Part shown: in pieces, positions 19,116-63,455 of the stretch
Layout of the letters: every line of letters starts with the position of its first letter
Numbering within the stretch: position 1 is the stretch's first letter
From: Liolophura sinensis
Taxonomy: Eukaryota; Mollusca; Polyplacophora; Chitonida; Chitonidae
NCBI RefSeq assembly: GCF_032854445.1
Contig: NC_088300.1
Span: forward strand, 620,001 to 684,000
Reading direction: 5' to 3'
Length of the DNA: 64,000 nucleotides
Notes under the pieces: model-generated
Told to the model about the DNA's origin: nothing
The model's database searches: none
What the model saw: the letters and a program-made list of their open reading frames with translations, nothing else
Program-made: the position numbers and the translations under genes

Positions 19116-20490
19116 TCACTTAACGGAATTACTGGAGTGATATAAGCTGCTGAGTTTGCCCTTCAATGTCTGATACTCCTTCTTCAGTAAACTAGCCAGA
19201 TCTTTCTTCTCCCCTTCCTCCACTTCCTGGTATAAGCCCATTTTGAAGGCTATGCTCACAGACATCACCACTAACGCTGTGCAAAGAAAAAACAGATTAT
19301 AACATGTAGCTACATAGCCACAAACTCAATTTGTGATATTATTTTGGAATGCAATGTTTTACTCAGGTGACATCAACCAATCCAATAAGTGCAGAACTTT
19401 ATTGGCTCAAAAATTTATCATAAATTTCCCAGCAAAAGTGTTTGAGGCATTTCTAGTAGTAAAAGACATTACACACACAAAATGCTAGCACAGACTGCTA
19501 TGGATTACAATTTCTGTTCCATGACTCCACATTAGCCACAGTAGTCCACCATCATTCGGGAGATGACCATACCATTAGCTTACAGCAAGTTACCCGTTTT
19601 GTGATGCAAGAATACAAGTACTTCACTTATTCAACTGAGTCAAAGATTCCAGGTGGATCCAATGGAAAATGGCAAAAAATGAATACATCAGATGCCTCGT
19701 AGCCCCCCTTAAGACACTTAGAAATAAATAAAGTTATGTATATAGGTATGTATGCTTGCGCTTTATGGCCAAAGACACCAGACATGACACACCACCCAGT
19801 CACATTTTAATGGCACTGGGCCAACCAGTCCTGTGTTTATGCTCTAACCTTCAAGAAAGGCAGCAACAAATACCATTTTTGAAGTCTTTAGTTTGACCCT
19901 AGGTCTAGCAACTTTGAGGCAGACACTTTAATCATTAGGCCCCAGAAACGGTCACATAAATGTATTACGAGTTATCATCTGCAGAGGTATGTAGGAAGAC
20001 AACACTAGTCTGTGCTTCTTGCCTTCTCCTTTAAACGCATTGCCAAACTGCTGATCAAATCAGGTGTGCATAACTCACATGTTGATAGAGACAGACAACA
20101 TCCTCTGTAGCAAAACCTGTTGAATCCTGTGTACATATTTCTATTCTTCCAACCCTCGTATAACACATAGCCTGCAGCTCCCGCACCCACTGAAGAACCA
20201 ATTACTCTGCATGTAACACAGTCCGCTTTATTCTTCACAATGCTGGTCACAGTTTCTGACACACTATCCACAGGTCTTGTTAGGGACAGTTGCTTGGTCT
20301 GAGCAATGTGGTCATCTTCGCCAGAGCCAGGAGATGTCAGCGTCTTACCGGGGGAGCTACTCAGGGGTTTAATGTCTTCTTTCTGCATCACTGGCCTCTG
20401 CAACTCTGACAAATCTCCCGTTTCGGATGGCATTATCTGAAGGACACTTTCTCTTTCTTTGAGGCCCAACCAAATCTGTAAACGCTCCAT
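19116..20490 (-). CDS. Small membrane protein, DMAC1/TMEM261-like (candidate mitochondrial complex I assembly factor)
   Basis: Two exons: 20079-20490 and 19116-19276, joined by a strong donor (GTGAGT, 20073-20078) and a TTTGCACAG acceptor. The phase (1 + 2) matches and gives 190 residues. The ATG at 20490 is the first in-frame Met, two codons after an in-frame stop; an AG acceptor just upstream suggests a non-coding first exon. The N-terminal 80 residues are polar and probably disordered. Next comes CVTCRVIGSS followed by a Gly/Ala-rich hydrophobic helix ending GYVLYEG, then a second hydrophobic segment (LVVMSVSIAF) starting exon 2, and a charged C-terminal helix rich in Glu and Lys. The C-x2-C-R plus GA-GYV pattern and paired membrane segments resemble DMAC1 (DUF4536), which in vertebrates helps assemble the distal membrane arm of complex I. 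Vertebrate DMAC1 is only about 112 residues, so the extended N-terminus is unusual. The gene structure is well supported; the family assignment is tentative. Confidence 0.6.
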
Positions 20491-21107
20491 TTGTTATCAA
20501 TGAGTACTTCTCACTTTCTAATTCTAGGTAATCATCTGAAAATGAAAAGTTATAAATCATGGCTTAAATCACAAAGCAGCAAAGCCCAACTCAACGGGAC
20601 TGTGAATTGTGAATGCCAATCACCATCCAGCATACACAGGTAGTTTAAACAAAAATGATTAGTTAATGAGAAAAAAATAAATGAAGGAATTGAAAGAAAA
20701 CAAAAATGAACCATTTCAGCAGCATGCCAACAATTGGCAAAACATGAATGAATTGGTACAACAGGCAATAGTGTCTTACAGTGTGCTAATGCAAACGTTT
20801 ACAATACTTCATGATACCGTGTAAGCCGTCAATATCGGAAAATGAGCACTCCGTAATGCTTTGAAACTTTAAAAACCTTGTCATTTCTTCAGTCTGCGTT
20901 AGTGCCAAGTAATTAAAAATCCTTGCGTTGCACTATCAAACATGAGTCAACATTTCCCTTGAGGTAAGAGAAGGAGACGCTCTTGACAGACGTTGTCAGC
21001 TGAGGAAACCAAGATCGTTACGCGTAACCTTGCTCCAGTCTGCACATAGATGACACAATCCAAGGGAAGCTACTTTTGTATTCATGTTTTGACGTGACCT
21101 GTGCTGC

Positions 21108-35400: not shown

Positions 35401-38400
35401 ACTCCACAGAAGTCTGGGTGGCAGACTTGACCGAAGGTGGTAGCGATGTAGTGAAAGGGTCAGCCCAAAAGGTAACCAGGAAGAAATCTCCATTCCTATC
35501 ATATAAACTTCCTAGTATATTGTATTTGTAAAGCAGTTTTAAAAATATACAAGTATCTCCTGTTCTGTTTTTCATCCTTAAAAGAAGAGACCATCTTCAT
35601 ATAATGATGCAGTGTTATTGGTGTTCATTGTTGGGTGATGAATGATGCAGTGTTATCGGTGTTCATAATTGGGTGATGAATGTTGCAGTGCTGTCGGTGT
35701 TCATCATTGAGTGATGAATGATGCAGTGTTATCGGTGTTCATCATTGGGTGATGAATGATGCAGTGTTATCGGTGTTGAGCATTGCATGATGAATGATGC
35801 AGTGTTATCGGAGTTCAGCATTGTAATGTGTGGGATATTTCAATTACCAAACTGCTGTGGTTTCCCCAGACTGTCTGGTATACAAGGGAAAAATGATATA
35901 TAAGGGAAAAATGATATATAAGTGAAGAAGTCTTGAGTCATTTTTAGTATTTTTTTTAAATATTTTGCTGTCTGTTTCAGAGCATGATGGAGGATTTTGT
36001 GCTGTCCACAAGAGTATCAGTAGATTATATCCAAATTTCTTATTGTTTTTGTTACTGTTATTTTGATACGCTGTGTTCAGGTGTCTGGTGGTGATGATGT
36101 CAGTGTGATATACCCTGGCTGGACAATGGACAATGAACTGTTATACATCGGTGACCAAACAGAGTGGTGGAATCTGTACCATGTGACCAAGTCAGGTGAC
36201 CACGTCAACCTTCATCCTAAACAGGCCGAGGTCGGTTGTCCTCATTGGATCTTTGGGTTCAACAAATACAGCATCGACCCAACTGGCAGTGGCAATATTC
36301 TAACCTTGTTTGGACGAGTAAGTGGAATGAAAGAGTGGAATAGTTTTGAGAATAGTTCTGTCTGTTACGGATCAGTTTGGTAACACAAGGTCTGAGTGAC
36401 TTCTGACAGCAACAATGTTGTGAAAATGTGATATGATGACAGATAGTGATGACATGACAACTGTTATGATGACTGATCCTGCTGACATGACAACTGTTAT
36501 GACTGATCCTGCTGACATGACAACTGTTATGACTGATCCTGATGACATGAAGACTGTTATGACTGATCCTGATGACATGACAACTGTTATGACTGATCCT
36601 GCTGACATGACAACTGTTATGATATAATTTTACCCCAGTCAGGGTTTTATTCTAACCAATGATGACTAATCATGATGACTGATCATGATGACTAATCGTT
36701 ATGACTGATCATCTTTCAGGACCTTGGTCTGTTAAACTTGAAGACAAAAGAGTACAAGGCGATGCAGACAGGGTTTGGCAGCCACACCCTCATCAACTAC
36801 TCAGGGGACGGGCAATATGCATATTGTATCGCTGACAGCCCTACACAGTTCCCTGTTGTTCTGAGAATCAACCTCAGCAACACTAAGGTAAGGGGAAAAC
36901 TAACAACATCTCCCTAGTTGGTGACTTCAGTTTGATGGACATGGTCTCAACATAGTTACTATTTTTTGGAAATTCAATATATTGGTGTGTTCACTGATGA
37001 TGATGGCAATCATGTTAAGAAACATTGCAAAGAGATTCGTGGTTAATTTTTTATCATGATTTGCCATTGACAGGTGGAGGTCCTGCGAGAGTCCAAGACC
37101 AGCACACTGGACAAGGGTTACTTCAGTATTCCCACAGAGATTAGTTGGACAACGGCTGGCAACAAAATTGCGTACGGTTATTTCTACCTTCCTCAGAACA
37201 AAGACTTCCAGGCACCAGAAGGAACCTTACCTCCCTTGCTGGTGAAAGCTCATGGCGGACCCACAGCAAAGACGTTTAATGGGCTCAACTTAAAAATCCA
37301 GTACTGGACAAGTCGAGGCTTTGCAGTGCTGGATGTCAACTATAGAGGCAGTACTGGCTATGGGAAGACATACAGACATGCGCTTAGAAGGAAGTAAGTC
37401 CGACTTTGTGGATAATTTGTAAATACAAAATATCGCCAAATATTTTGCACCTTTTGAGATCTCTATCTAGCAGCAGAATGCGATTGCCACTGTGACTTTG
37501 TGTCCACTTTACAAAGAGTGCAAAGATAATTATTTATTGGTATGGTAGGCATTCAGTTGCCATGGTAATTTCCTGAATGTACACGCACATAACGTTACTT
37601 AGGGTGATTACCATTATGTGGAAACACCCGTGTCACCAGCCTTGAATGTACACGCACATAACGTTACTTAGGGTGATTACCATTATGTGGAAACACCCGT
37701 GTCACCAGCCTTGAATGTACACGCACATAACGTTACTTAGGGTGATTACCATTATGTGGAAACACCGGTGTCACCAGCCTTGAATGTACACGCACATAAC
37801 GTTACTTAGGGTGATTACCATTATGTGGAAACACCGGTGTCACCAGCCTTGAATGTACACGCACATAACGTTACTTAGGGTGATTACCATTATGTGGAAA
37901 CACCGGTGTCACCAGCCTTGAATGTACACGCACATAACGTTACTTAGGGTGATTACCATTATGTGGAAACACCGGTGTCACCAGCCTTGACTAGCCAATC
38001 ACATGACATTATTCACCGTAATTGTTAACTTATTAGTTTTTCGGTGTTTGCAACACCGTTGTTTCAGCATAGTCATAAATGCCTCTAGCATAAACCTGAA
38101 CATAGTGGTTCCTCAGTTCAGTAAAAGGATCTCTGGAAAGGCACAAGCACAGCTTTTCCCCTTCCTCTTTATGCTTGATAGACTTAGTCTCTTCCTCTGC
38201 CATGCTCTGGGTGTATTTTTGTCCAGCTGTAGTTCCTAACAGGTAGTTGTAAAACCCACAATATATGAATTAGACACTTCCAACAGTTGAGGCTTGGACA
38301 ATTTTTGTTATCTATTTTCCATTTTTATTTTTTTTCTGTTACTTGTATGGGTGCACATCTGTGTACTACTTTCCTCCAACTGTCACCAGTAGAAAGCTGT

Positions 38401-41400
38401 CAAACTGAGGCAACTGCCAAACTGAGGCAACTGTCAAACTGAGGCAACTGTCAAACTGAGGCAACTGTCAACTGAGGCAACTGTCAAACTGAGGCAACTG
38501 TCAAACTGAGGCAACTGTCAAACTGAGAAAACTGTCAAAAGCAGAAAACTGTCAAACTGAGAAAACTGTCAAACTGAGAAAACTAGTAGATGCTTCAAAT
38601 ATGTGCACAGCACCAACACGTAGGTTCTAAACTTTCAGCTTGCACACATTTGACATTTTTTGTATATTTACCTTGTGCATGTTATATTTCCCGAGGAATC
38701 TCATTGACACCCAGAGCCCTAGATTTTAAGTCCAGTCCCTCATTTTAATAATGTAAATCTGCAATAGTTGCAACATTGTGCGAGAAGTTCTACAGCTTGT
38801 GTACACTGTTGTAGCTGGGGCATCTGTGATGTGGAAGACTGCTGCAGTGGTGCGGAGTTTCTGGCCAAGGAGGGGAAAGTGGAAGCTAAGCATTTGTGTA
38901 TTGATGGTGGATCAGCTGGAGGGTATACAACCCTGGCTAGCTTAGCATTCAAAGATGTCTTCAAGGCTGGTGAGTCATGCAGCTTATGTTTGTTAGCTTT
39001 GTTTTCGGGTTGGAAAGACAAGGGATGTCCATTTTGAGGTTGAAGACCATGGACAATATTTTACACTTGCCTTTTTTTCTAAATGTACCACAGATCGAGA
39101 GATAAATGTAGATGCCATATTGTAGTATAAAAAAGAGTGGTGGATGGTGACATCTTACGTTTGTCATTTGACCGATATAGCAGGCATTTTTGTATGTCAC
39201 ATGTGGGAAGTTTATCAGTGACTTACCAGAGGTGGCTGTTCTCCCCTGGCCAGTGCAGTTCCCTCTCCCTCAAACCTAACACCCATTCTTTAAATACTAA
39301 CACCCATTGTTTTAATCATAATACCCATTTTTAAATTCTTGAGTAAACATTCAAATAAATACATTAATATTACTCTCAGTGCTCATTTTGACTGTTAAAA
39401 TGATGAATTTGACGGAGTTTTTCCCGTATAGGTTCTACACATTTTTGAAATAATGAGAAACTTTTTATTTTGGAGGGACGTTCGAAATGTGAGATGGTTT
39501 CAGTACAAGTCTTGTTCGTCTAATATCAAGAAATGGCTCAGTATGACACCGTCTACCTCTGTATCCCATTGTTATCTACAGGAGCCAGTCATTATGGTGT
39601 GGCTGATATTGAAGCCTTAGCAACGGACACCCACAAGTTTGAGAGTCGCTACATGGACTCACTGATTGGACCATACGATGAGGAGCATAAACAGTTGTAC
39701 AAGGACCGCTCGCCGATCAACCATGTCAACAGCCTGAACTGTCCTATGGCATTTTTCCAGGGTGATGAAGACAAGGTGAGTACCCTGGGCTCCACTTCTT
39801 GTTGGGTGGAGTTATTGTGTAACAGTATTGTTACTTAGCAACCATAGCAACCAGTACTGCAGAGATTGTGTCCTGTGCATCTGTGAGGAGAGGGGAACAG
39901 AATTGGTCACCAGATGAGGGCGTGTACATGGTCTGTGACTGGGAGGGGTGTCGGGGTCGGGTGTTTTGGGTGGGGCATCATGTGTTGGACATCACATGTG
40001 GTGTCTCGGCTGGGACATCAGGCCTGGTGTGTTGGGTGGTACATCAGGCCTGGTGTGTTGGGTGGTACATCAGGCCTGGTGTATTGGGTGGGACAGCAGA
40101 TTTGGTGTCATGGATGGGGCATTGGGTCTGGTGTTTTGGGTGGGGTATAGGCCTGGTGTCTTGGGTGGGACAGCAGATTTGGTGTCATGGATGGGGCATT
40201 GGGTCTGGTGTTTTGGGTGGGGTATCAGGCCTGGTGTCTTGGGTGAGGCAGCAGGTGTGGTGTCTTGGGTGGGGCATTGAGTGGTGTTTTGGGTGGGACA
40301 TCAGGTCTGGTGTCTTGTGTAAGATATCAGGTCTGATGTCTTGGGTGGGACATTAGGCTTGGTGTCTTGGGTGGGACATTAGGCCTGGTGTGTAATGTGG
40401 GAAATTGGTTCAGGTGTCTTGGGACATGACTGAGATATGACTGAAAGAGTGTGTTAAGTGACATTAAGCCCATCAAGCAAGCATATCCATTTAAATGTAG
40501 TAACAGTGTGTAAACTGCTCTGTTTAGATTGTGCCGCCCAACCAAGCAGAGATGATGTACAATGCTGTCAAAGCCAAAAAACTACCCACAGTATATGTGC
40601 TGTTTAAAGGTAAGGCAAGATCACAAGTCTGTTAGTAGTCAGTGTGGAACACACATTTTTACAAAGTATGTGGACAATCTGTAGAGCAGTATCAAACCCA
40701 GAAAGTCATTCTGAAGGTGTGGGTGATACTCAGGAACACTTACAATAAGGAAAGGGCTTTGAGGTTGACTCCACAAATCAAAACTTCATATTTTCGTAGT
40801 GTTGACTGAAATGAATAAGAATAAATGTTATTTTTTCTTTTTGTTTCAACTGGATGATGTCCAAATATTAATTAATGAGTGTCCAGCATAACTTTGTAAC
40901 ATGGCAAACTGATCATGACTTCCTGTCAGAGACTAATTTGTCAGTACAGAAATTCCAATCTGACCAATAGATATGGACGTGCTATAAACAGTTATCAGGT
41001 TTGTGCTACATTCTGCATGCATCTGCTATAGACAGTAATCTGGTTTGTGCTACATGCTATAGACAGTAATTTGGTTTGTACTACGTGCTATAGACAGTAA
41101 TCTGGTTTATGCTATGTGCTATTGACAGTAATCTGGTTTGTGCTACGTGTTATTGACAGTAATCTGGGTTTGTACTACATGCTATAGACAGTAATCTGGT
41201 TTGTGCTACGTGCTATTGACAGTAATCTGGTTTGTACTACATGCTATAGACAGTAATCTGGTTTGTACTACGTGCTATAGACAGTAATTTGGTTTATGCT
41301 ACATGCTATAGACAGTAATCTGGTTTGTGCTTTTAATTTCCAGGTGAACAACATGGCTTCCGTAAAAGTGAAAACATTCAGAAGGCCTTGGACGGGGAGT

Positions 41401-45977: not shown

Positions 45978-48900
45978 TCAGTCCTGCATCTCCTCAGGTA
46001 TCTCATGAGGGCCGAGGATACCAGGAACAGACATTTGGATCTTCCTCTTCTCATCCTGGGCCTGTTTAATCACATTCTCTCTCTCCTCCAGGAACAAGTC
46101 ACTGTTGTCCTCGCCCGCAAACTCCTACAGCACAACATAACCACACCTCAGTTTGGACTTCAAATCACCTATCTATCACAAAGTGAATGTCTTCAATCTA
46201 CCTACCTGAAGACATATGATTTTATAAGGTTGAAAATGGACTTAATGGGTGGGCTAAAAAAGCTCTGTATCACGCACAGAGCTGATTACTAGTTTAGGTT
46301 CATGTGGGGACAAGCCAAATGCTAATATCAACAAGGCAGTTAAATCAATCAACAAAAATCAGTTAAATTTCGAAAATTACATCAAGTGTAGTGCTTATAC
46401 AATACAGGCAAAGTTTAAAATGTTTTTACAAGCAGAATGACACCTCTTATACAGGAAGGAGAAATCATGCTTAATATCAGACATTTCTCGCCAGGGTGTC
46501 TCCTTATGTAGGATTCGCAACAATAATATACAAGGACGTGCTCAAAACTCATACCCTGATTTGAACCAGGAAGTCCCTCAAATGGTCCTTGAATGCTGGG
46601 ATGTCTAGATTAAAGCTGAAGAGGCCCTCAATGAAGACCTTGATTTGGGGTCTGAAAGGAAGAATAGAAATAACGTTAATGACTGGATGACATAAATAAA
46701 CAGAACAGCCTCTGTATGAAGTATTCATCAGTAATCCTGGCAACGAAGGCTGGACCAGGCTGTATGAAGTACACAAGTAATCCTGGCAACGAGGGCTAGG
46801 CCAGACTGTATGAAGTTCATCAGTAATCCTGGCAGCGAGGGCTAGGCCAGGCTGTATGAAGTTCATCAGTAATCCTGGCAACGAGGGCTGGGCCAGGCTG
46901 TATGAAGTTCATCAGTAATCCTGGCAACGAGGGCTAGGCCAGGCTGTATGAAGTACACGAGTAATCCTGGCAACAAGGGCTGGACCAGGCTGTACAAAGT
47001 ACATGAGTAATCCTGGCAACGAGGGCAAGGCCAGGCTGTACGAAGTACATGAGTAATCCTGGCAATGAGGGCTACGCCAGGCTGTACTAGGTAAATGAGT
47101 AATCCTGGCAACGAGGGCTGGGCCAGGCTGTACGAAGTACACGAGTAATCCTGCCAATGAGGGCTGGGCCAGGCTGTATGAAGTACACAAGTAATCCTGG
47201 CAACAAGGGCTGGGCCAAGCTGTATGATGTACATGAGTAATCCTGACAATGAAGGCTAGGCCGGGCAGTTGGTCAAAAGTTCATGTGATATGGTTTAAAT
47301 TAGGTTTGCAATGACGTCTTCGCCAAACTATTCTGGCGTTTACTGCTCACCAGAAAATTGCAGCGACAACTAAATATGCACGGGCTTCAAACAGATCAAG
47401 TTTGCTGCATACACTGTGGCAGCCTATTTTGTACACTATGGCAGCCTATTTTGAAGACCCTGAAAATGATAAATGGTGTAAACATTCTTATGGCACGCCT
47501 TCACAAGGTGCTGTCCTTTCCTTTCATGAATGTCCCATACCTGAATGAAACCCCTGCAGTAAGTCTCACACAAAGGCACAAGTTTACATAGGTGGCTGAC
47601 TGGCTGTGATACGTACTCATTGAGGTGAGGGAAAGCTGCTTTGAGCAGGTTTAACAGAAACTGCTGGATGTAGGGGATGTTCTGGTTGGGTCCGATGTCC
47701 TGCCCCAGAGCGACAGTTATCTTCCCAGCCTCTAGTAAACTGAACATGTATGCCAGGATGGTGGCATGCATCGTCAAACCTAAACAAGCAAACAAACAAC
47801 CAAGTTAGTCAGGAGTCTATGATGTGGCACACTCACAATAAAATGTCATGTTTTTGTCCCTGTAGGAGATAACTGCACAATAATTAATGGTTTACATCAG
47901 AACAGTATGCGATGATTTATTTGTGCAAAGTTACAGTAATGAAAATTATAACATGTTAATAATTCAAAATTACAGTTCTTTTCCAAACATTTTGATGTAT
48001 AATTTCCCAGCATGTTTCTTATTAAACAAAAGAATAGGGTCCAACCTGCAGTGTGTGAGCTGTCCGTGACCACAGAGAAGATATGCTGTAAGATGTCCGT
48101 GAAGTAGGTGCTGTAGAAACTCTGGGCAGCCGTCTCCTCATCGGCAATGTTCTGCAGTAACTTGTACAGGATGTCCAGACCAATGTCTGCTACATTCCTC
48201 ATTGTGTGTTTGAATGCCCAAATAATAGAGTCCAACACCAGCTTAAACTTAGGCGCTGAGATACTGAGTAGAGCTGCAAACAGAATCACGCACGGGTCAA
48301 CCAGATACGCAGAAAATAAAAACCTTTACTTTCACACGGACATTTCAAAAACACCGACGACAAAAAAGTTTTCTTTTGGCCCTTGTAACAAAATTGTCTT
48401 TTTTTTTTCAATGTTAAACGCTTAATACATATTCCCTGCAGTTACAAGATGGAAGTGACAATACTCCCAGACACATCTGTGGGCAGTGTGAAAAGACAGT
48501 AAATGTTGGGTGAAATCTTACCATGAAAACAGTTTGAGTTGACCGCTTGCAGTAGCACAAAGAAGTTTGTTCTGTGTTCTGGGAACTCCTCGAAATCCTA
48601 TGAAAACATAATATCATGTAAAAACAGGATTCATGAAAAAGCAGTTTGCCCCTGGTTAGTCTCTTCTCACACAGTGCTAAGTTTTAACTTATTTGCAACT
48701 AATAACCTTTAACAGAAACCAGATAAGCAGAACCACAAACAAGACTAGGAAATGAATATTGAACAATCTGGAAATTTGGTCCTGAACCAAAAAAATTGCG
48801 GGGTTTCATTCTACATCTGGTTGACAACTACTTTATTTATCATGTCCAGAGTACATTCAAACACTGCATTGAAGACCTGTGGGAGCTACATCCGGTTGAC

Positions 48901-51900
48901 AACTTACTTTATTTATCATGTCCAGAGTACACTCAAACACTGCATCGAAGACCTGTGGGAGCTACATCCGGTTGACAACTTACTTTATTTATCATGTCCA
49001 GAGTACACTCAAACACTGCATCGAAGACCTGTGGGAGCTACATCCAGTTGACAACTTACTTTATTTATCATGTCCAGAGTACATTCAAACACTGCATCGA
49101 AGACCTGTGGGAGCTACATCCGGTTGACAACTTACTTTATTTATCATGTCCAGAGTACATTCAAACACTGCATTGAAGACCTGTGGGAGCTACATCCGGT
49201 TGACAACTTACTTTATTTATCATGTCCAGAGTACATTCAAACACTGCATTGAAGACCTGTGGGAGCTACATCCGGTTGACAACTTACTTTATTTATCATG
49301 TCCAGAGTACATTCAAACACTGCATCGAAGACCTGTGGGAGCTACATCCGGTTGACAACTTACTTTATTTATCATGTCCAGAGTACATTCAAACACTGCA
49401 TCGAAGACCTGTGGGAGCTACATCCGGTTGACAACTTACTTTATTTATCATGTCCAGAGTACATTCAAACACTGCATCGAAGACCTGTGGGAGCTACATC
49501 CGGTTGACAACTTACTTTATTTATCATGTCCAGAGTACATTCAAACACTGCATCGAAGACCTGTGGGAGCTACATCCGGTTGACAACTTACTTTATTTAT
49601 CATGTCCAGAGTACATTCAAACACTGCATCGAAGACCTGTGGGAGCTACATCCGGTTGACAACTTACTTTATTTATCATGTCCAGAGTACATTCAAACAC
49701 TGCATCGAAGACCTGTGGGAGCTACATCCGGTTGACAACTTACTTTATTTATCATGTCCAGAGTACATTCAAACACTGCATCGAAGACCTGTGGGAGCTA
49801 CATCCGGTTGACAACTTACTTTATTTATCATGTCCAGAGTACATTCAAACACTGCATCGAAGACCTGTGGGAGCTACATCCGGTTGACAACTTACTTTAT
49901 TTATCATGTCCAGAGTACATTCAAACACTGCATTGAAGACCTGTGGGAGCTACATCCGGTTGACAACTTACTTTATTTATCATGTCCAGAGTACATTCAA
50001 ACACTGCACTGAAGACCTGTGGGAGCTACATCCGGTTGACAACTTACTTTATTTATCATGTCCAGAGTACATTCAAACACTGCACTGAAGACCTGTGGGA
50101 GCTACATCCGGTTGACAACTTACTTTATTTATCATGTCCAGAGTACATTCAAACACTGCATCGAAGACCTGTGGGAGCTACATCCGGTTGACAACTTACT
50201 TTATTTATCATGTCCAGAGTACATTCAAACACTGCATTGAAGACCTGTGGGAGCTACATCTGGTTGACAACTACTTTATTTATCATGTCCAGAGTACATT
50301 CAAACACTGCATTGAAGACCTGTGGGAGCTACATCCGGTTGACAACTTACTTTATTTATCATGTCCAGAGTACATTCAAACACTGCATCGAAGACCTGTG
50401 GGAGCTACATCTGGTTGACAACTTACTTTATTTATCATGTCCAGAGTACATTCAAACACTGCATTGAAGACCTGTGGGAGCTACATCCGGTTGACAACTT
50501 ACTTTATTTATCATGTCCAGAGTACATTCAAACACTGCATTGAAGACCTGTGGGAGCTACATCTGGTTGACAACTACTTTATTTATCATGTCCAGAGTAC
50601 ATTCAAACACTGCATCGAAGACCTGTGGGAGCTACATCCGGTTGACAACTTACTTTATTTATCATGTCCAGAGTACATTCAAACACTGCATCGAAGATCT
50701 GTGGGATATCCTTCAACACATGGCTCTGAAACAGGTCAGTAAAGATTAGACTCGCATTCACAGCTTAGGCAGCAGGCAACCGAAATGAAACCGCCATGGA
50801 ATGAATAGTTTATTTATTTATTTGACTGGTGTTTTACGCCGTATTCAAGAATATTTTACTTATGGTCAGTGGCCAGCATTATGGTGTGAGAAAACCGGGC
50901 AGTGCCCAGGGGAAGCCCACGACAATTCGCAGGTTGCTGGCAGACCTGGAATAAATAATAAAATATCAAACACTGCTATTAAATCAAAAGTAACACAAGA
51001 ATACAACAAGCATGTGAAATGAGAATTACAATACTCTCCAGGAAAGACCAGATCCAGAAATTTTGCCCTGAATTTCACTATCTGACCCTCAACAATAAAT
51101 GAATGTGACAAATCTGAAGTTCCAATAACTTCATACTTTGGCTAAGCCACAAAACAAACTGCAAATTAACTAGAAGTGAATGGTTATCTCTGAAACCTGC
51201 TTCAGCTTACCTCCAGCTTGTTGACTATTGTAGCCATGGTACTGAGAACTTCTGGTTCTCTTGCTGCTGGCACATTTCTCTGGTAATCTCTCAACACTGC
51301 ATCCAGTAAAGGTGGGATGAAGTTCTCTGCCACCTGAAAGTGAAAAGTCCACATCAGTCCGGAGTGCTGTTCAGAAAGCTGAGGAGATGATCCATTCTAC
51401 CTGTTGTCTCACCATCTAACATGCAGCAAGAAGAATGACATCCCTATTTATTACGCTGTACTAGAAACAGATTTCAATATTTTGCAGCAAAAAGAATTTG
51501 AACAATTCCAATTCTTAATGTATATAGTCCGAGGTGTTACAGTTGATGGACCTTGTTAACTTACCATGACCATATCATTGGAGCGGCTCACCCAGGTTGA
51601 GATGAGTTTGAGGGTTTCCTTCTTGACAGTCCTCATGCTACGGATCAGAGGCTGTTTGGTGACGCTCTCCCCGTTAGTAGCGATGGCGCTGCTGATATTT
51701 TCACTCATCACCTTGTACACATTCAGCATGTCCAGGTACACACGACCAAGCTACAACACAGCACCGCAGCCACTTATACGGCAGGTATGACAATGCAGTA
51801 ATCTTATACAGATAGCCTTATATTTTAAATCTTCAAGAATTTCCTCACTTGATAATAAAGATTTTATGGTATATTCAAGTTTGCATTATCTTGACATTAA

Positions 51901-54900
51901 CAGAAAACGGGTGGCAAAACCACAAAAATAAATCATTCCACAGTCTGCAGAGAGAGACTGTAGCACAATGCTGGCATGTCTGACTCACCTGTACCACATA
52001 GGGATGGCCTAGAGCTTTACAAGCTCGTACATTTGTTTTCAAAATATTGCCCAACTGCTTTACAGCATCAGGGTCCTTCAGCACTTCAAAATTCTGAAAA
52101 TGGCAAGAAAATAGTATCAGCTCATTTCCCATGGTTTATAGTGCAATAGTGAATCATCACTGTAAAAGAACAAAAAAAACAACAACAAACAATGAGATAC
52201 ATCAATGTTTGTTATTAAATTCCTTCACAAGCACTCATTTGCCCAACTTCACACTTGACAGGTGTTTTGTTAAAGACACATGCAAGCGCACGGCCATTTA
52301 GTGAAGGACTTAGTGAAAAATGAGTCATAAAGCCGCCACAAGTCTCTACCAAGTACTGCCTTAAGCGCGTTTAGGATTGTACACAAAACCTGTATTTCCC
52401 ATATCTCCAAAGGCATTTTAAGTGAAAGTAAAACAGTTTCTGATAAATCTTTCAGTGGGCTCGAGACTAGTTGAGCTAAAAACATTCCAAATTTGCTGAA
52501 TGGTGTGCTTCTCTCTAAGGTTCCTTCGTAACTTTGAAAGTTTAAGCAATAAACTTACCACATATAAATATCTGGACAAATGTTAGTATTTTGCTTACGT
52601 GAGTGGCTCGGTTAATGATTCCATCCCAGACTTGGTTAGGTAACATCATATACTTCTCCACCAAATGTTCCTGAGCCATGGAATCTGTCTGAGCACTGAT
52701 CATAAAGCCCACCGCCTCATAAAATGTGTGCACCTTCAAACAAATAACAGAAGAATGTGTCAAGGACTGATGTCCAAAGCATCAAAAAATGTTCTAAATT
52801 GTCCTTTATCTCTCAAATAAGACTTACACAAATTAATAAATCATCAGCTGGTACACAAAATAATTTGTTTGTCTTCATACATATTACCTTCAAGGAAGAT
52901 ACAAGATAAGGATAAATGATAACTTTACTGAGGTAAAACGTATCTATTGCAGACTAGTTTTTTGTACCTGTTGAGGCTGGAGGTCACATATGATTGTGTT
53001 GATGCCATTGAGGATTTCCTCTATGAACGGCATGACTTCTCCCACCTGCACTTGTACAAAGTGACGTCGACATTTCTGAGCAATTTTAATAAATGTGTCA
53101 CACGCCATGTCCTGAACACCATCATGGGTTTCTGTGAATCAGACAAGTGTATACAGAGTGACAAACGCCAAGCTCTTCACAGTGCAAACCTTCGTAAATA
53201 CAGCTAAGATTACTGTACTGAAAGGTATTCTTTACATTTGTCTTTTTTTTTTCAATTTTCACATACACGAAATCAGTTTAAATTAATTATACATATAATT
53301 ACTTCACGTTTTAATAAAATATTCAGTATGGCCAACAAAACTATAAGTAACATATTTTTCATACAAAAGGATCAAAAGTAACTTACCGTGCATAAATTCA
53401 AACAGTTTGTTTACAACGGTCTTGAGGAACTTCCAGTGAGCCCGCAGAAACCTGGGATATTGTCCCACAACATACATAATGTTAGAAGCTATAATAGCCT
53501 TGTTGTCCTTGCCTCTCTTCTGTTCACACAGGCCAAGCAAGTCCTGCCAGCAGAAAATTCAAACTGAACCAATGGTGTAGGCCCATTGAGATCATCCAGT
53601 GACACAGGTTAGCGGTGTGATTGATGATCTACACACAACTGTTACCCAACAAAATATCCAAGGATTACTCAATGAAAACTAATTTCATTGGGTTTCTTGA
53701 CAGAGCACAAACGTTCTGTTCTTGCAGAGTGCATCAACAACTACTACAACAAGATATGGCAGTGTGAAAAAAAAATTAATGCTTGCTTAACTTTTTTTTC
53801 ATTCAGTGGGAATCACTTTCACAAAAGATTTTTTCAGTGTGTTTTTCATCACTTTTCAAAACTATGGTAGTCATAATAGAAACACAAACTTCAAACTTAC
53901 CTTTATGACTGTCACCAGAAATCGCTTTTCATCATCCTCATGCATTGCACCACTTATTGACCCTATAGCCCAGCATAACTGTCAGAGAGACAACATATAC
54001 TACATAGTGACAAACTTCATAGATCTTAAGGGGAGCAAATAAAACTGTGCTTCAACTAAAATCTGACTTTGGGCGCTCAAGATTTCTTCCACCCATAAAC
54101 TTAACTGCAGAAGTGATAAATTTCTGAGCAAAGCATTAAACACCAATCTAAAAAATAAATTAACACATAAACGACTTGAAATCTGTAAACTCAACTTTTA
54201 CCACACACCAGCTGGCGTGAATGTCGCCATTCTTAAGAGACAATATAGGTCTAGAAATAGGGATACCACAAATCTGAATACCAGAAACGGAGATTTTGCG
54301 TGAATGTTTGTGCAAGCAGGCTGTGGTCATACATACCGTGTTGAGATTTTTCCAGGACCACTCTGAACCGTTTACTTGGTTGTGTAACTTCTCTGTCATA
54401 ATAGCCTCCGTGTCAGCATAGTCCAAATGAGTTAAATACACTGTTAACAAATAACATGCAGCTGCATCAGCAAACCCATATATATTTAATGTTCTCTATC
54501 TGTCTTTTTGAAAGTTTCTTCTTCACACGTCTACATGCCACATCGTTAATAGACTCAAATGAGCTTAACCATCATAACAAAAATTTCACTTGTATGACAA
54601 CAGCCACCATTATGGTGGAAGGAAACCAGGAAGAGTCTTGGCAAACCCTTGACCATCCCATAAGTTGTTGGTTGACCTTCCCACATCCCGTGATTTGATG
54701 ATAAAATTAAATTCTCATTATGTGTCAGACACGACTTACCCAATGTTTCCCTCATACTCTTATACAAATTGATGGAGTCTGTGTCCTTCATGAATTCCCG
54801 CACCACTTCTCCTTGCTCATTTTCCACAACCAATACCTCCTCTGGTTTGGCCATCCGTGAGATCATTACTCGTCTTACCTGCCAGGTTAGAAAGAGATGC

Positions 54901-57900
54901 AACTTTAGCACAAAGTATTCCAGGGAAAAGTTTAAACCGTACTTCATACTTTCTTTACACTTCGCATTTAATAAGACGCCGTAGGAATCCTCTATAAATG
55001 GTACTGGTTTGCCATCTAATCAACCACATTTTGCGAAAACATGAAAAGAACTGTGCTGATTTTCTGTATTTTGCACTTCTCAACCGTAGATCCACTTACC
55101 TTGGTAAGCTGAGGATTGTAAAGCTGGCGTCGAATGGGCATCTCTCCATGCTGTTTGCCCAGTATTAATGGTGAAGGGGCCATGGGAAAAGGACTCTCTC
55201 TGTACAAATCAGCTGCCAACGTATTCCAGTACTCCAGACAAATTTTGAAAATCTCCACTTCTTCTACTTCTGAGATGAGGATGAGGTAATGTAGGGCCTG
55301 GTGAGAAGAAAACCATGTTATTTTAAGGTATACTTTTCTAAATATCTTTTAGACCATTGCCAACATATTCAGTGCAGCACAAATTACATGATCATCTTGT
55401 GCATTTATTTCCTTTGGATCCATCTTCAGTTTTATTTTCTTGTCCAAGCAAGTGATATATGGTGTCCACCTGGCCATAAAACTTCCTTTCCTGTAGGCAG
55501 AAGCCCTGTGGCAAGGTTGGTTTGCTCAAATCTTGCTTCATGAAGCAGTGGTAATTTAGGAAACACAGACAGAAGATGCATGTCACCATAGTAAATGTAC
55601 TCAGTGTAACTTTGCAAAAGCCTTGTAAAACAAATCCTAGGACTCCAACTCACTGTAGTTTGACTTGACATATCCCATGTTATTCTATTCATCCTACTGT
55701 TTTACGCTGTACTCGAAAATATTTCACCGATTTGAAAGCGAGAGGGGGTCCTGTTTATAATATCACAGGCTGTAATGTACATGTAAGTGTGACCTCACAA
55801 CATAAACATTTACTCAAATACTGGATAGCCAGACTGGGAATCTGCATCACGCCTATTCGGATTTCACAACAGTCCAAACTATGCCAGAGGACTGAAGTAT
55901 TGTTTCTAGTTTGTTTCCTTCGTCGGGAAGTGACTAATGTTGTAGGAGAGATAACTGCATGTGTCCTCACCTCCATCAGCGTAGGGTGTAAGTCCTGTTT
56001 CCTCTCTATCAGCTGAGCATGCTCTTTCAAGTAGGTGCATAAAAACAGGCTCAAATTCTGGATAAAGTTTTGTTCATCATCGCTTCCCCTCTGGTAAGCC
56101 TCTCGGATATTTGTCTCCAATGGCAACATCTGAAATGAAAGGAGAACCAATTAGAGCCTTCCACCAATGCGGACATAAAAACCTTCCAGCTGTGGGCAAA
56201 AGAACTTATGAAACAGAAGTCAACACCTCGTCTGGAATACCAATGCAGAGATATGAAACCTTCCAGATATGGGCAAAAGAACTTATGAAACAGAAGTCAA
56301 CACCTCATCTGGAATACCAATGCAGAGATATGAAACCTTCTAGATGTGGACAAAAGAACTTGTGAAACAGAAGTCAACACCTCGTCTGGAATACCAATGC
56401 AGAGATATGAAACCTTCCAGATGTGGACAAAACAACTTGTGAAACAGAAATCAACACCTCTTCTGGAATACCAATGCAGAGATATGAAACCTTCCAGATG
56501 TGGACAAAACAACTTGTGAAACAGAAGTCAACACCTCATCTGGAATACCAATGCAGAGATAGGAAACCTTCCAGATGTGAGCAAAAGAACTTATGAAATA
56601 GAGGTCAACACCTCGTCTGGAATACCAATGCAGAGATATGAAACCTTCCAAATGTGGGCATAATAACTTATGAAACAAAAGTCAACTCCTCGTCTGGAAT
56701 TTATTTATATAATTGCTGACCCAAGGATATTGAACTATCAACAAATTCAAATCGTAAACAACAAGAAAAAAAATTTAGTTATATTTAAGGATGATATGCA
56801 GACTTATCGGTTGCATCCTCACAGTTAACAGATGCAGATCCCCAAGTCATTATCAACAATGGTGGAACTGTTTACCTGTTTCAGTTGACATCTCATGCAG
56901 TCCAGGCTTACTTTCATCAAATGACATGACAGATTTTCCCTGTTTCAGTTACAATTGTCTGAGACAGCTCATGCAGTCCAGGCTTACTTTCATCAAATGA
57001 CATGACAGACTTTCCCTGTTTCAGTTACAATTGTCTGAGACAGCTCATGCAGTCCAGGCTTACTTTCATCAAATGACATGACAGACTTTCCCTGTTTCAG
57101 TTACAATTGTCTGAGACAGCTCATGCAGTCCAGGCTTACTTTCATCAAATGACATGATAGACTTTCCCTGTTTCAGTTACAATTGTCTGAGACAGCTGAT
57201 GCAGTCCAGGCTTACTTTCATCAAATGACATGACAGACTTTCCCTGTTTCAGTTACAATTGTCTGAGACAGCTCATGCAGTCCAGGCTTACTTTCATCAA
57301 ATGACATGAAAGACTTTCCCTGTTTTAGTTGCAACTGTCAGAGACATCTCATGCAGTCCAGACTTACTTTCATCAAATGACATGACAGACTTTCCCAGTT
57401 TTAGTTACAATTGTCTGAGACATCTCGTGCAGTCCAGGCTTACTTTCATCAAATGACATGACAGACTTTCCCTGTTTCAGTTACAATTGTCTGAGACAGC
57501 TCATGCAGTCCAGGCTTACTTTCATCAAATGACATGACAGACTTTACCTGTTTCAGTTACAATTGTCTGAGACAGCTCATGCAGTCCAGGCTTACTTTCA
57601 TCAAATGACATGAAAGACTTTCCCTGTTTTAGTTACATCTGTCCAGGACATCTCATGCAGTCCAGACTTACTTTCATCAAATGACATGACAGACTTTACC
57701 TGTTTTAGTTACGGCTGCCAGAGACATCTCATGCAGTCCAGGCTTACTTTCATCAAATGACATGACAGACTATAACTTTGTTCAGGTGTGTCACTGTGAG
57801 AATGAACATTTGCAGCAGACTTATTTTTATCAAATTGTGTGACTTACCTGTTTCAACTGTGTCATTGTCAGAGTGAACAGCTGGATAAACTGTTCATCAT

Positions 57901-60900
57901 ACTGTAATACTTGAACACCAGCTGTCGAAACAGAAAGTGCAAACTAATATAGGCCCATGTTACTGTAAGCAATTCCACTTGTACTAGGTAGATTCTAGTT
58001 AAAAATTACAATGTTATAATTTGGCGTCCATTGATCGTAAGATTATCCCCGATTACTTTTTCAATATTTTGAAGAAATATCAATAAAATGCTAACATTAA
58101 TTTCTAAAAATTGATACACTTCTAGAATTCTCTAGAGTCAGGTTATCTGTAAAGTGTTTCCTAAAAAAGAAATAAACACCAAACTGATCAGTTCTGGTGG
58201 AAAAGAAGCCACAATTATTCACACATGTAATTACATGTTTCTAAAACAGATACAGAGCTGCATCTATTATAAATGCTGAATATACCAAACAAATTAACAC
58301 ATTTCTTTCAAACATTCTTTAAATAGCCCACGTCAAAAGTGAAAACTTGATGCAACAACAACCTAAACAGCTGTTATTCCAAACATCAATTACTTCCGAA
58401 GTGAGAGGCCAGACAGACCAGATGTATTACAACGTAAACTATAAAGCCACATCCAACACACTACATGCTACTGAAGACTTCATGAAAACATTACTCAGGC
58501 CCGTATGCATGCTTGAAACATTGCATTACTTTTGACCAAGACACTCGGCACCGAATGCTCTACGTTCATTTCCAATATATCTATATTGTACCATACTTCA
58601 CATATCTTTCGATTACTGCTTTTACAAGCTACATTCTATTTCTTTTCATTCTATTAGACTCTATTAAAATACTCAGTATTGTGAGAGGTCATTCAGTGGA
58701 ACTGTAATAACAGAAAGCTTTTAATATGAACCTCTGTTCTTGTGACAACAACATCAGTTATCCCCCGGAATAAGCGTAAACCAGGACCGGGTGGTTTACT
58801 GATGCAGACTTGTGTACATGTATCGGTCTGCAGGAAATTTGTACAAGTAACTAACAACAGCTGTTAGCAGCACTGCGTTAAAGGAGCAGACCAACGTTAG
58901 AAAATAAAGTATGCATCACCTAAAAAGCCACAGGCACAATCCAAACAGTTTTCATGATTTTTTCTCTTACAGTGAACAAAATGCAAAATAACATTGGGAC
59001 TCTACAGTGGACTTCAGGCCACATTGTACAGGACGAACAATAGTGGCAGATTAAGGATTCTTTTTATTAAACACGCTCTAGCTGTTATATTTTCACATTA
59101 AATACAGATATATACATTTAGATGTGGTATTACAAATACTGAATCTGCACAAAGCCGCCTTCCAGATAATTCCCACATTATGTGAAAGTGGTCTGTTCCT
59201 ATAAATGACGAATTCATGACTGACTGATCTGATAAATGGTCAGTGGCAAATGTTCCCAAAATATATGTGAAATACAATGAACACTTGCCCCAAGTATAAA
59301 TCAGAAAAGGATTGACTATTACCATTTAGGCATTTCTACATGCCCCTTTGCTTCACATCCGGTTTAGTAAATTTGAACTTTCTTAATGATAGTATCATCA
59401 CAGTGGAATGTAATGTAAAAACAAGTGCTATAAAACCTCCCCCAACCACATGGAAACATCTAGCAACACACACAGCGCTTGTTCAACACTTCAGACATTT
59501 TCATACAAAATTCCCTTATATGCAGTTTTAGAAAGTCGAACGCATCCATGTAGAAGTTACAATCAGTTTAATTACAGAACTGACAACAGAAAGAACAGCA
59601 TGCTAATGTATAACATGGAGGAAAAAAAAACAGAGAAGCAAAACCTAATAATGTAACAGGCTGAGAGTTAGTAAAACAACCCACATAAAACAGAAAAGAA
59701 CAAAAGCTAGACTACAAATCCCAGCTAAGTTCCATGCAATACCAACCTATTTCTGTCAAACACTTGAGAGTAACATTTCTGAACATGGGTACATTTAAGA
59801 ACTGAAAAAAGGAAACAAAACATACTGGAGTTCAAGTCTCTTGTCTCAACAAGTAGAATACCTTACCACAAAATCCCTTCCTCATACTTACTTAGTCATG
59901 ACAAACAGTTCAAGTTGAAATCTAGTTAATTCTTTATCACAAAACAAAATTCCATGAGTAGAAACAACCATACCACAAAGGCAAAGATATTAACAAAGGA
60001 AATGAATGCTAGAACATCAAATTTGTCAGTTTTACATGTGTTTTACAAACGAAAACATGTCTTCTGTATTGTAAAATATATATTAAAAAAAAAAATTGGA
60101 GATACACTGAACATCAATCTATATGTACATGAGGAAAAGATGTGGTAATTCATTCACATACTGTAAAAATGGCACTTGATGGTTTTCAATTTGCCAATGT
60201 ATCTGTTAAGAAAAACCACCATCTTTATTAACAAGTCAAAGGCATGACAAAATAAGTACCATTCAAGGCACTTAATTGTTCTTGTTTTTTAGTAGAAGAA
60301 AGTTTAACTGCAATCAAAACTGTGCAACACATGTAAATATTGAACATAATATTAAGTGCTTTGAATGCCTACTTTAAATAAAGGAAATACAGCAGTTTTG
60401 GGGGGAGAGGTGGAGGGGCTCATGTTAATTAGTAAAACTTTACCTTTGCACAGAAGTTCACATTAATTTAGTTTAAATGGAATCATGATGGTTAAATCTT
60501 CAGCCAGTATTTTGGATACAGCTCATGTAATGCAAAATTTTGCTTCAAAATCATAGCAATGACACATACATGTAAACACGTTCATTTGGTATCATGCAAA
60601 TCTCACTCTAAAGCTATGATTTTGCCGTACATGACTTTCACCCCCAAAACTCAATATATCCTGACATGACGTCATGACAAAAAATATGAGCGTTGCTCCA
60701 AAGAATTTTTTTTTGTCTGGAACAACCTTAAGCCCATGACACACAAAGGCACTTCAGTAGTGAGCTTTTATAATTATAGAGGTTAGCTTAGTCTGTTGAA
60801 TACATGTTTATTAGTCAGTGTATTTAAACGCTAGTTGGCTGTTCCTGTAATGATACTGATAGGATTATTACGTCATGCCACAGGGACAGAGCTTATAAAC

Positions 60901-63131
60901 AGATGATCAATATATAACATTTTCAGATGCTAATCATTCAAGTCCAAAAATAAAAAAAAAATGTCAAATTCTCCTGCAATTTCAGCAAACTGCTAAGGCT
61001 CAAATGAAACACTGACGTAACCATGTACTAAGTGTATCACAGGCTGTAGAACTTGCACTTAAATCAAACATGAAGTTGTGACTATAAATTATTCCAAGAA
61101 ACAAAAAATAACAATTCACATTCAAACCTACCTTGTATATTAATGTAGTGATGAGCTTGGTTTCAAAGATATATCCCAGCGGTATCCAATTTAAGAATCG
61201 AAGCAAAGTCTCTAGCGTTGACCCCACAAGTGGTGCATTCTGCGAGTTGTCCTGAGAAGGCAAAAACAACCCAAATGGTAAAGCATGTTGACCTTCCAGC
61301 ATGCTTATAACTAAAAATAACAACACTTGAAGAACTAATACAATAGATTTAATCAAATTCCACACTTGGTACACTAAGCATAAAGCAATGGACAGCTGGC
61401 AAAGAGTTAAATTTGAAGACGGCACGCTGATGATATACTGATAAACACTTTGATCAGCCTTAAGTAATACTGAGTTCGGACGTATCAACCTGCTCCACCT
61501 CACACCCACAACTGCTAATTCCACTTTATCCCTTGACTCACCATAACAAACTGGCAGAGCTGGAATATTGATGAGAATTCACTGCACATGCTGTCCTTTA
61601 AGTGTTTGGCCTTTGCCTGTGTCATTTGTCCACTTGAAAAATCAAAAACTTCTTCACTGTGAGGGAAAATATGAATCCAAAAAATATTAACATACTGGCG
61701 CAAATTGCATACGAAAAACTGTTCACCATTTACAATGTATACAGGTTTCTTTCTAGCCACTTTCTCATTGTGGTAACCTATCAGCAATTGATGTGAACAA
61801 AACAGTACTTCTCAGGCCCTGAACCTATATTCTCAAACATGTTCCACTACAAAAATAGTCTTAAAACCTTTCCACTCTTTGAACTTTCCTGTTATTAGAA
61901 ACCAGCCTGAAGTCAATCACTTCTACTTCAACTTACATTGCTATATCCTCAACTTCTGATATTCTTCCTTTTCCCCTACACATACCATGTACTTTTAACT
62001 TGACAGCTCTGTGTATACTCTCATTACTTGAGAAACATCCATTCTGTCTATGGACATGAACAGAGTTATCTCACCTTAGGAGTTTCATAATGGTCATGTT
62101 ATTCTGGCACAGAGACTCATTTGTCTTGCTTGCCCCCACAATGTCACTGATAAATGTGGGCCAGTTTCTGGGCCACTCATACTTTAGGATCTGTCAATAT
62201 AACATAAACACCAAATCAATGCACCGTGTATTCCTTATAAAAGCTATTCAGATAAATAGACAAAAGGACTCAATAATGAATTACACAAATTCGTCAACAA
62301 GTTACGCTTATTCACATTAAAACAGAGCAAACGTGATTGTAAAAATGAAAAGAATGAATGAGTGGAGCTGAACATCATATTTATTTATTTGACTGGTGTT
62401 GCTGTGCTCAAAAATATTTCACTTATACAACGGTGGCCAGCAATATGGTGAGAGGAAACCCATAACCATCCGCAGGTTGCTGGCAGATTCTCTCACTTGC
62501 AGTCAGGGAGGAAGCCAGTATGAGCTGGACTTAAAGTCACAGAGACAGCATTTGTGAGAGGCTCCTGGAACTCTATATAAGTGTTTTCATAACAGTGTTG
62601 GCAACATTAACAGAACATAAAATAAATTTTCAGTTCACCCTTAATCCCCACAAGAACATGGAAATGCATAGGAAAGTCCTCACCTGCACCAGTATCATAT
62701 TCAGTTTACCAAGGTAAACTTTTTCTCTTTCCAAGAGATTGGGATCTGAAGATGTTTTGATTATCAGTCCCACAATATACTTCTTGATTCCTGTCCGAAA
62801 AAGACAAAACAAGAATGTCTCAAAATCAATAAAACTGAACACAAAGATTTACAAAGGCATGGGAATGGATTCTACATATTGTTATCCAAAGACACTTTCT
62901 TTATACAATGGCTGATAAAAGTTTCTTCAATTCATCTGGCAAAGAATCTTTACCTTCACACTGTGGTCTTGGTAATACTTTCCACCTGGTTTTTATGACA
63001 TTTTCTAATATCTGTAGGGCATAGTACTTTGTCTGTTGGTTACTTGAATATTCTAAGATAGTGTCCACTCGCGTCCAGGCATCAGGATGTTCCTTCAAGT
63101 TGGTGAGAACTTCCTGGGCCATCCTCTGTTG
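45978..63131 (-). CDS. XPO1: Exportin-1 (CRM1), nuclear export receptor; N-terminal exon(s) outside window
   Basis: Karyopherin that exports leucine-rich-NES cargo with RanGTP through nuclear pores. Exons in transcript order: 62954-63131, 62684-62790, 62075-62190, 61542-61656, 61132-61251, 59747-59801, 57848-57921, 55971-56129, 55100-55297, 54740-54878, 54337-54440, 53901-53978, 53387-53543, 52968-53131, 52599-52733, 51989-52093, 51565-51750, 51211-51333, 50654-50725, 48522-48597, 48046-48273, 47617-47779, 46555-46651, 45978-46124. The 24 exons sum to 3096 nt (1031 codons plus stop) with every phase consistent; vertebrate XPO1 is about 1071 residues, so roughly 40 N-terminal residues are missing. 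Landmarks: [10 protein letters not shown]-type CRIME start ([19 protein letters not shown]), HEAT9 loop ([17 protein letters not shown]), NES-groove Cys in [25 protein letters not shown], and C-terminus PHEIPEEM ending QD. No frameshift or missing block was seen. The intron after exon 50654-50725 contains an exon-derived array. Confidence 0.97.
46690..47265. repeat. 46-bp minisatellite (about 12 copies)
   Basis: Unit tgtatgaagttcatcagtaa, tcctggcaacgagggctagg, ccaggc, in the XPO1 intron between exons 46555-46651 and 47617-47779. I see no similarity to the flanking exons. Confidence 0.95.
48826..50653 (-). repeat. 76-bp tandem array built from an XPO1 exon end plus 5' splice site (about 24 copies)
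   Basis: Copies step by 76 bp with rare 75-bp units (near 48827, 50270 and 50572). Read on the minus strand, each unit has TCCCACAGGTCTTC, the exon-like segment down to ATAAATAAA, then GTAAGTTGTCAACCGG and back to CCCACAG. The array lies in the XPO1 intron between exons 50654-50725 and 48522-48597 and directly abuts the former. Between CACAG and GTAAGT there are 45 nt, i.e. 15 codons in the exon's own reading frame with no stop. Sites vary little: the codon after TTC is GAT, AAT or AGT, and 75-bp copies change GTAAGT to GTAGTT. Near-identity between copies implies recent expansion or homogenisation. Confidence 0.95.
50654..50725 (-). other. XPO1: XPO1 72-nt exon that seeded the adjacent 76-bp array
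   Basis: Phase-0, 24-codon exon ([14 protein letters not shown]... to MINK) with acceptor CTGTTTCAG and donor GTAAGT. Its last 53 nt, from TCCCACAG onward, plus the first 23 nt of the following intron form the unit repeated through 48826-50653. The genuine exon reads CACAGATC where the intronic copies read CACAGGTC, which separates the real exon from its copies. Confidence 0.93.
50809..50945 (-). mobile_element. tRNA-head SINE copy (truncated)
   Basis: (ttta)n, gactggtgttttacgccgta, ttcaagaatattttacttat, gtggccagcattatggtgtg. It sits in an XPO1 intron about 85 bp upstream (in transcript sense) of exon 50654-50725. Confidence 0.85.
54585..54700 (-). mobile_element. Degraded SINE fragment
   Basis: Matches the SINE body: cacttgtatgacaacagcca, ccattatggtggaaggaaac, then cccttgaccatcccataagt. 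In an XPO1 intron. Confidence 0.65.
55685..55745 (-). mobile_element. SINE core fragment
   Basis: tactgttttacgctgtactc followed by gaaaatatttcaccgattt, a short piece of the SINE core, in an XPO1 intron. Confidence 0.65.
56150..56700. repeat. 77-bp tandem repeat (about 7 copies)
   Basis: Unit gaaacagaagtcaacacctc, gtctggaataccaatgcaga, gatatgaaaccttccagatg, tggacaaaacaacttgt. It starts about 20 bp upstream of XPO1 exon 55971-56129, in the same intron as the 76-bp array at 56870-57780. Confidence 0.95.
56870..57780 (-). repeat. 76-bp tandem array related to the end of an XPO1 exon and its donor (about 12 copies)
   Basis: Unit tttcatcaaatgacatgaca... to ...ccaggcttac, 76 bp, in the XPO1 intron between exons 57848-57921 and 55971-56129. 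The plus-strand strings TTTCATCAAAT, GACTTTCCCTGTTTCAG, ATTGTC and CAGCT align in order with TTTTATCAAAT, GACTTACCTGTTTCAA, ATTGTC and AACAGCT across the exon/intron junction at 57826-57885. Most copies have lost the donor (CAGGGAAAG on the minus strand). Copies near 57541-57551 and 57689-57699 still read CAG|GTAAAG. 57781-57847 holds a diverged copy. Confidence 0.85.
57922..59746. other. XPO1: XPO1 intron, no further features recognised
   Basis: AT-rich unique intronic sequence between exons 57848-57921 and 59747-59801. No tandem array of the kind seen elsewhere. Confidence 0.55.
59802..61131. other. XPO1: XPO1 intron, no further features recognised
   Basis: AT-rich unique intronic sequence between exons 59747-59801 and 61132-61251. 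No array, SINE or RNA gene recognised. Confidence 0.55.
62378..62570 (-). mobile_element. tRNA-head SINE copy
   Basis: (ttta)n, gactggtgttgctgtgctca, aaaatatttcacttatacaa, ggtggccagcaatatggtga, with part of the head region. In the XPO1 intron between exons 62075-62190 and 62684-62790. Confidence 0.8.
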
Positions 63132-63254: not shown

Positions 63255-63455
63255 TACTTCACTTATACAGTATGACGGCAGCCAGCATTATGGTGGGTGG
63301 AAACTCACGACCATCTGCAGGTTGCTGGCAGACCTTCCCACGTACGACCGGAGAGGAAGCTTGCATGAACTGCACACGAGCTCACAATGACCGCATTGGT
63401 GGGAGGCTCCTGGGTCACTGCGCCGTGCTGGCGAGCTAACCCCCTCGGCTGCGGA
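63255..63455 (-). mobile_element. tRNA-head SINE copy with the most complete head
   Basis: Body cttatacagtatgacggcag, ccagcattatggtgggtgga. Its right end, read on the minus strand, starts GGGGTTAGCTCGCCAGCACG, then GGCGCAGTGACC (A-box-like) and GTGAGCTCGTGTG (degenerate B-box-like). This shows the family is transcribed from this side, so copies with (ttta)n on the left are minus-strand insertions. A short second core fragment follows at 63462-63505. Confidence 0.82.

Follow-up and report, generated by a model that had tools for sequence, protein, structure and literature searches.

A 76-bp tandem array across the 5' splice site of an XPO1 exon in the chiton Liolophura sinensis, a probable mirage

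The stretch of DNA considered here, hereafter the window, comprises 64,000 nucleotides of the chiton Liolophura sinensis (RefSeq assembly GCF_032854445.1, contig NC_088300.1, positions 620,001 to 684,000), and its minus strand contains most of the gene for exportin-1 (XPO1, also called CRM1), in which an array of 76-bp units straddles the end of one exon (e19) and fills most of the following intron. The attribution to XPO1, already proposed in an initial annotation of the sequence, is supported by the match of the C-terminal peptides to mouse XPO1 (3gjx; E, 9.5e-180) and to the Pfam family CRM1_C (E, 2.7e-128). Furthermore, the 24 exons that we could place, from position 63131 down to 45981, join into 1031 codons without a stop (1031 amino acids) and reach the natural C terminus. 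Exon e19 ends with ...DMINK, followed by the donor GTAAGT. In the alignment with mouse XPO1 (3gjx), the K is followed directly by DFEE, so that at the e19/e20 join the mammalian protein has an insert of zero residues. The coordinates of these features, and of the others mentioned below, are collected in Table 1.

The Tandem Repeats Finder (TRF) describes the array at e19 as 25.0 copies of a 76-bp period, with 98% matches and a score of 3631. Each unit corresponds to the last 53 nt of the exon plus the first 23 nt of the intron, and the unit to which the exon end itself belongs (unit 0) is followed by 24 further copies. TRF and the parsing of the single units thus confirmed the anatomy first proposed for the repeat (53 nt plus 23 nt, about 24 copies), except for the limit of the array, which had been placed at 48826 and which TRF extends to 48811. 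The 23 introns mapped in XPO1 range from 163 to 2056 nt, with a median of 358 nt; without the array, intron 19 would measure 213 nt, which is an ordinary size for this gene.

All 24 intronic copies contain a stop-free stretch of 45 nt (15 codons), in phase 0-0 and bounded by AG and GT. The donor reads AAA/GTAAGT in 21 copies and AAA/GTAGTT, 1 base shorter, in the other three (units 1, 5, and 24), GT being present in 24/24. It follows that the initial description of each copy as CCCACAG, 45 open nucleotides, and GTAAGT is correct as to openness and phase, but not as to the full donor hexamer. In the translated stretch (VF[D/N/S]...), the third residue is D in 14 copies, N in 8, and S in 2, in agreement with the variation noted initially; however, the copies start with V, whereas exon e19 reads IFDAV, as the exon's ATC is replaced by GTC (an A-to-G change) in 24/24 copies. 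The mean pairwise identity among units 1 to 23 is 98.3%; units 11 to 18 are identical, and the variants occur mostly near the ends of the array.

Table 1. Positions of the genes, exons, and tandem arrays discussed in the text (window coordinates, except for the loci of other genes, which carry the prefix L)
Feature	Coordinates	Strand	Remarks
XPO1 exons e1 to e24	45981..63131	-	Gene 5' end outside the window; e1 acceptor uncertain
XPO1 exon e19	50654..50725	-	72 nt; last 53 nt (50706-50654) belong to array unit 0
XPO1 exon e20	48522..48597	-	Starts DFEEFPEHR; direct join to e19 by homology
76-bp tandem array at e19	48811..50706	-	Exon end plus 24 intronic copies; TRF and unit parse
Array portion of XPO1 intron 19	48811..50653	-	24 copies; 1843 of the 2056 nt of the intron
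Older array at e7	56887..57893	-	Derives from exon e7 (57921-57848), its 3' end plus donor; period-76 array aligned with it at 56887-57771; 13 copies in register
Kinesin gene	705-875 + 6815-7288	-	
S9-family peptidase gene	37071-37394 + 39524-39835	+	
DMAC1-like gene	20008-20493	-	Below the Pfam cut-off
Donor-crossing array, Cpn60_TCP1-/adaptin-family genes	L046:3369-3931		Period 109
Donor-crossing array, Cpn60_TCP1-/adaptin-family genes	L060:2644-2761		Period 47
Donor-crossing array L054a	L054:2058-2518		Period 66
Donor-crossing array L054b	L054:3714-3929		Period about 60
41-bp array	L054:8953-9495		TRF, 13.4 copies; TGTATTTATGTACAG-like acceptor motif; ends at the likely true Cpn60-family acceptor

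The same gene contains a second, older array with the same period, which derives from the 3' end and donor of exon e7. When this array was compared with the exon ends across the donors, e7 gave a score of 34, while the other 22 donors gave at most 20 and 300 shuffled sequences at most 19; the match to the exon end was also recovered by BLAST, with 73% identity. In particular, GT is retained in 3 of the 13 copies (10 have lost it), and an in-frame stop, in the frame of the exon, is present in 12 of 13, the exception being the last copy, which is cut off. To judge from this one old array, donors and reading frame seem to decay over time, in line with copies that have no function. A further array of the gene, at 56163-56700, was considered as a possible counterpart at the acceptor of e8 and rejected: its score of 27 arose from a probe overlapping the last unit, and the array, which is intronic only, stops 33 nt short of the exon.

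Arrays of this kind occur also in other genes of the genome. Searches for four families returned 189 exon matches (50 Cpn60_TCP1, 37 Adaptin_N, 21 Proteasome, and 81 Myosin_head), 56 of which were examined (47 Cpn60, 6 Adaptin, 2 Proteasome, and 1 Myosin), for a total of 127,645 bp sampled. Tandem copies cross the 3' end of the exon in 4 of the 56 matches, distributed over three genes, a figure to be taken as approximate, as the edges of hidden Markov model matches are not exact exon ends and the sample consists mostly of one family. GT is kept in 6/6 copies in L046, 7/7 in L054a, 2/2 in L060, and 4/5 in L054b. A fifth match flagged on the 3' side (L054, 8570-8983) was discarded, since it extends past the exon and includes part of an intronic array with a 27-bp period. 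Three further flags concerned the 5' side: in L047 and L049 the copies stop short of the match edge, and in L054 the 41-bp array listed in Table 1 repeats an acceptor up to the probable true one. The idea that exon ends are preferred targets was not retained, since donor-crossing arrays affect 7% of the matches (4/56) and arrays cover 11.8% of the sampled sequence, with no excess over random placement.

Minisatellites straddling an exon-intron boundary, at either the 5' or the 3' side, have been described in amphioxus genes under the name of mirages (PMC3087553, PMC3902484); the genes cited in these sources are Adh3, the globins BflGb6 and BflGb9, PGBD5, and TnC, and regular splicing is reported there to be undisturbed. 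Mirages are further characterized by a length that is unstable between individuals or tissues. As in the amphioxus cases described, the e19 unit spans the boundary (53 nt and 23 nt), many units keep the splice signals (GT in 24/24, GTAAGT in 21/24), and the copies are homogenized with a divergent edge unit (G in 24/24 copies, A in the exon unit). Different from them, the host is a mollusc, and the copies are 24, compared to the 6 of one reported BflGb6 haplotype and the 3 of the other (PMC3087553). We treated the cephalochordate host as a matter of history and not as a defining trait of mirages. Judging from its sequence, the e19 array is thus a mirage. Its kind is known, but intact donors follow one another in it over an unusual length, and the type of host is new according to our literature search: among the matches listed there, none is an exon-boundary minisatellite in a mollusc. 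Other sources describe a 27-bp minisatellite of abalone, placed in intron 3 (PMC6905558), and duplicated fourth exons of earthworm metallothionein, said to be absent from the final transcript (PMC12783039). Moreover, intron gain has been attributed to the tandem duplication of AGGT-containing exon sequence (PMC4974935; Rogers model, as presented in PMC3087553). Tandem duplication copies splice signals in both situations, but intron 19 of XPO1 existed before and was enlarged, and a new intron position was not seen.

On these grounds, we consider it very probable that the array is a tolerated tandem duplication and that splicing takes place at the first, exon-defined donor. The minisatellite would have been founded when a segment spanning the 5' splice site of e19 was duplicated in tandem; replication slippage or unequal exchange would then have raised the number of intronic copies to 24 and maintained their uniformity. 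The spliceosome would take the first donor, paired by exon definition with the acceptor of e19 itself, and the whole array would be removed within the 2056-nt intron, the extra donors acting as decoys whose use would lead to a premature stop. Each of the 21 GTAAGT-bearing units would be able to act as the exon end; therefore, after unequal exchange between units the donor would in most cases be intact and the protein almost the same, with I replaced by V and, sometimes, D by N or S. The tolerance of such an array by an essential gene would thereby be accounted for.

The persistence of so many donors could also be read as a donor ladder with a regulatory role, in which the use of distal donors would lead to a premature stop and decay, and the length of the array would tune XPO1 output; we regard this as improbable. 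Read-through of the first donor meets a stop after 16 codons, inside the first copy and before the first distal donor (open reading frame 50603-50764), so that every distal-donor product would be truncated, as the initial annotation had anticipated. It is in favor of this alternative that all the distal donors lie past one common stop, with AAA/GTAAGT retained in most copies, and that GT is largely kept in the four arrays of other genes. In terms of score, AAA/GTAAGT is a fair donor: among the 23 real XPO1 donors, 13 match or exceed it, counting the site itself, as do 6 of 881 other intronic GTs. We also considered that RNA structure might conceal the decoy donors and rejected the idea, since four units fold less stably than shuffled sequences (z, +2.15). 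A human minisatellite with several splice donors reportedly belongs to the gene 6-16 (IFI6), its unit being said to measure 12 bp. Such a case is in print, as the title of the report indicates (Turri 1995). However, there is no sign of selection for such a role, the older e7 array having lost most of its donors, and the published mirages are said to leave splicing undisturbed (PMC3087553, PMC3902484).

The in-phase open stretch bounded by AG and GT in all 24 copies would also suit a cassette of microexons, some non-adjacent copies being spliced in and contributing 15 residues each to a helix of XPO1, and the common A-to-G change places the pseudo-acceptor in an AG/G context; nonetheless, we hold this to be very unlikely. 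The distance from the GT of one copy to the AG of the next is 30 to 31 nt, and adjacent copies could therefore hardly be joined: the shortest mapped XPO1 intron measures 163 nt, and the human ultrashort introns reported measure 43 to 65 nt (PMC8363638). The initial proposal, in which inclusion had no upper limit, is therefore untenable. If one copy were skipped, the gap would be about 107 nt, allowing at most about 12 microexons, and with two copies skipped it would be about 183 nt, allowing at most about 8. Furthermore, the mammalian protein has no insert at the e19/e20 join, and the conserved D of the stretch varies to N or S.

The acceptors were evaluated with a matrix built from the 23 acceptors of XPO1, the real sites being scored leave-one-out. 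The pseudo-acceptors scored from 5.4 to 7.3, mostly 6.2, compared to 0.9 to 15.2 for the real sites, and 5.8% of 659 other intronic AGs reach 6.2. Pyrimidines occupy 9 of 16 positions, a level shared with the two poorest of the real sites. An extra AG occurs 9 nt upstream of each pseudo-acceptor, whereas the nearest one is at least 20 nt away in 23/23 real acceptors. Thus, by matrix score, which lies within the range of the real sites without standing out, the pseudo-acceptor is not as weak as was supposed initially, although its pyrimidine content is low and an AG is present at -9.

Moreover, we scored the microexon property, defined as an in-phase open segment ending at GT with an acceptor score of at least 5, in all the arrays. 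It occurs in 24/24 copies at e19, 0/11 examined copies at e7, 0/6 in L046, 0/7 in L054a, 2/5 in L054b, and 0/2 in L060. The microexon look of the e19 unit is thus mostly its own and not a genome-wide rule. Since the e7 array and the arrays of other genes are mostly devoid of the property, the phase observed in XPO1 needs no function; its neatness is probably a coincidence, and a microexon reading of the array is unlikely. That every second or third copy is spliced in some tissue, giving exportin-1 isoforms with 1 to about 12 extra 15-residue helices, appears even harder to credit; if it were true, a hypervariable minisatellite would make the length of the XPO1 protein vary between individuals.

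An assembly artefact, with an inflated copy number or a spurious array, is scarcely credible: tandem arrays are error-prone, but the copies show ordered private variants, the contig extends over 82.5 Mb, no second locus with the e19 unit was reported in the genome among the best candidates scored, and comparable arrays recur in other genes.

Some observations weigh against a tolerated duplication spliced at the first donor. The e19 copies, being about 98% alike, are too young to reveal any constraint, and the comparison with e7 is weak on the matter of exon use, since the microexon scan required GT and covered 11 of the 13 copies. The score of the pseudo-acceptor falls inside the range of the real sites, in a matrix derived from 23 sites only, and L054b does carry in-phase open segments reaching the acceptor threshold in some of its copies. 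Furthermore, 21 of the 24 copies share the hexamer of the true donor, which is itself middling, and competition among them is physically plausible.

The four donor-crossing matches among the 56 in other genes, together with the two arrays of XPO1, suggest that mirages arise wherever intronic minisatellites are dense. In XPO1, the true GTAAGT donor and its 21 exact copies, 22 in all and with near-identical flanks, are gathered in one natural intron of an essential gene, and the array thus offers a ready means of testing which of several equal 5' splice sites the spliceosome selects, and how. It also bears on how repeats could seed new exons or introns.

Tandem repeats make up 31% of the window. 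Copies or fragments of a repeat resembling a short interspersed element (SINE) were found at 12644-12783, 16231-16361, 25814-25900, 50809-50947, 62378-62487, and 63299-63335, and the fullest of them ends with ...TACGGCGTAAAACACCAATCAAATAAATAAATAAA, an ending that we take to be shared with repeats of molluscs and brachiopods. Searches with this tail in papers and in genome and viral contigs gave no match, and neither did Rfam or ARAGORN. The other genes of the window are listed in Table 1.

Elsewhere in the genome (609 Mb), eight tandem Haemocyan_bet_s domains (PF14830), which we presume to be a mark of molluscan haemocyanin, occur at C8:37880506-37891931, each in an open frame of 429 to 529 amino acids. 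An amphioxus host, suggested at first by the density of minisatellites, was rejected on account of these domains, and a contig of 82 Mb also fits poorly with the smaller chromosomes of Branchiostoma; the zero matches in the 14 control genomes of the domain search say little, as these are prokaryotic. Few arrays were listed in the haemocyanin gene and in the region upstream of the window. In the myosin family, two neighboring exon matches (C1:26642195-26642299 and C1:26643291-26643386) correspond to one and the same part of the myosin head (profile positions 118 to 152 and 121 to 152) and could possibly be mutually exclusive exons. The open frames around Myosin_head exon matches reach 1870 amino acids, perhaps owing to stop-free arrays that fill the introns.

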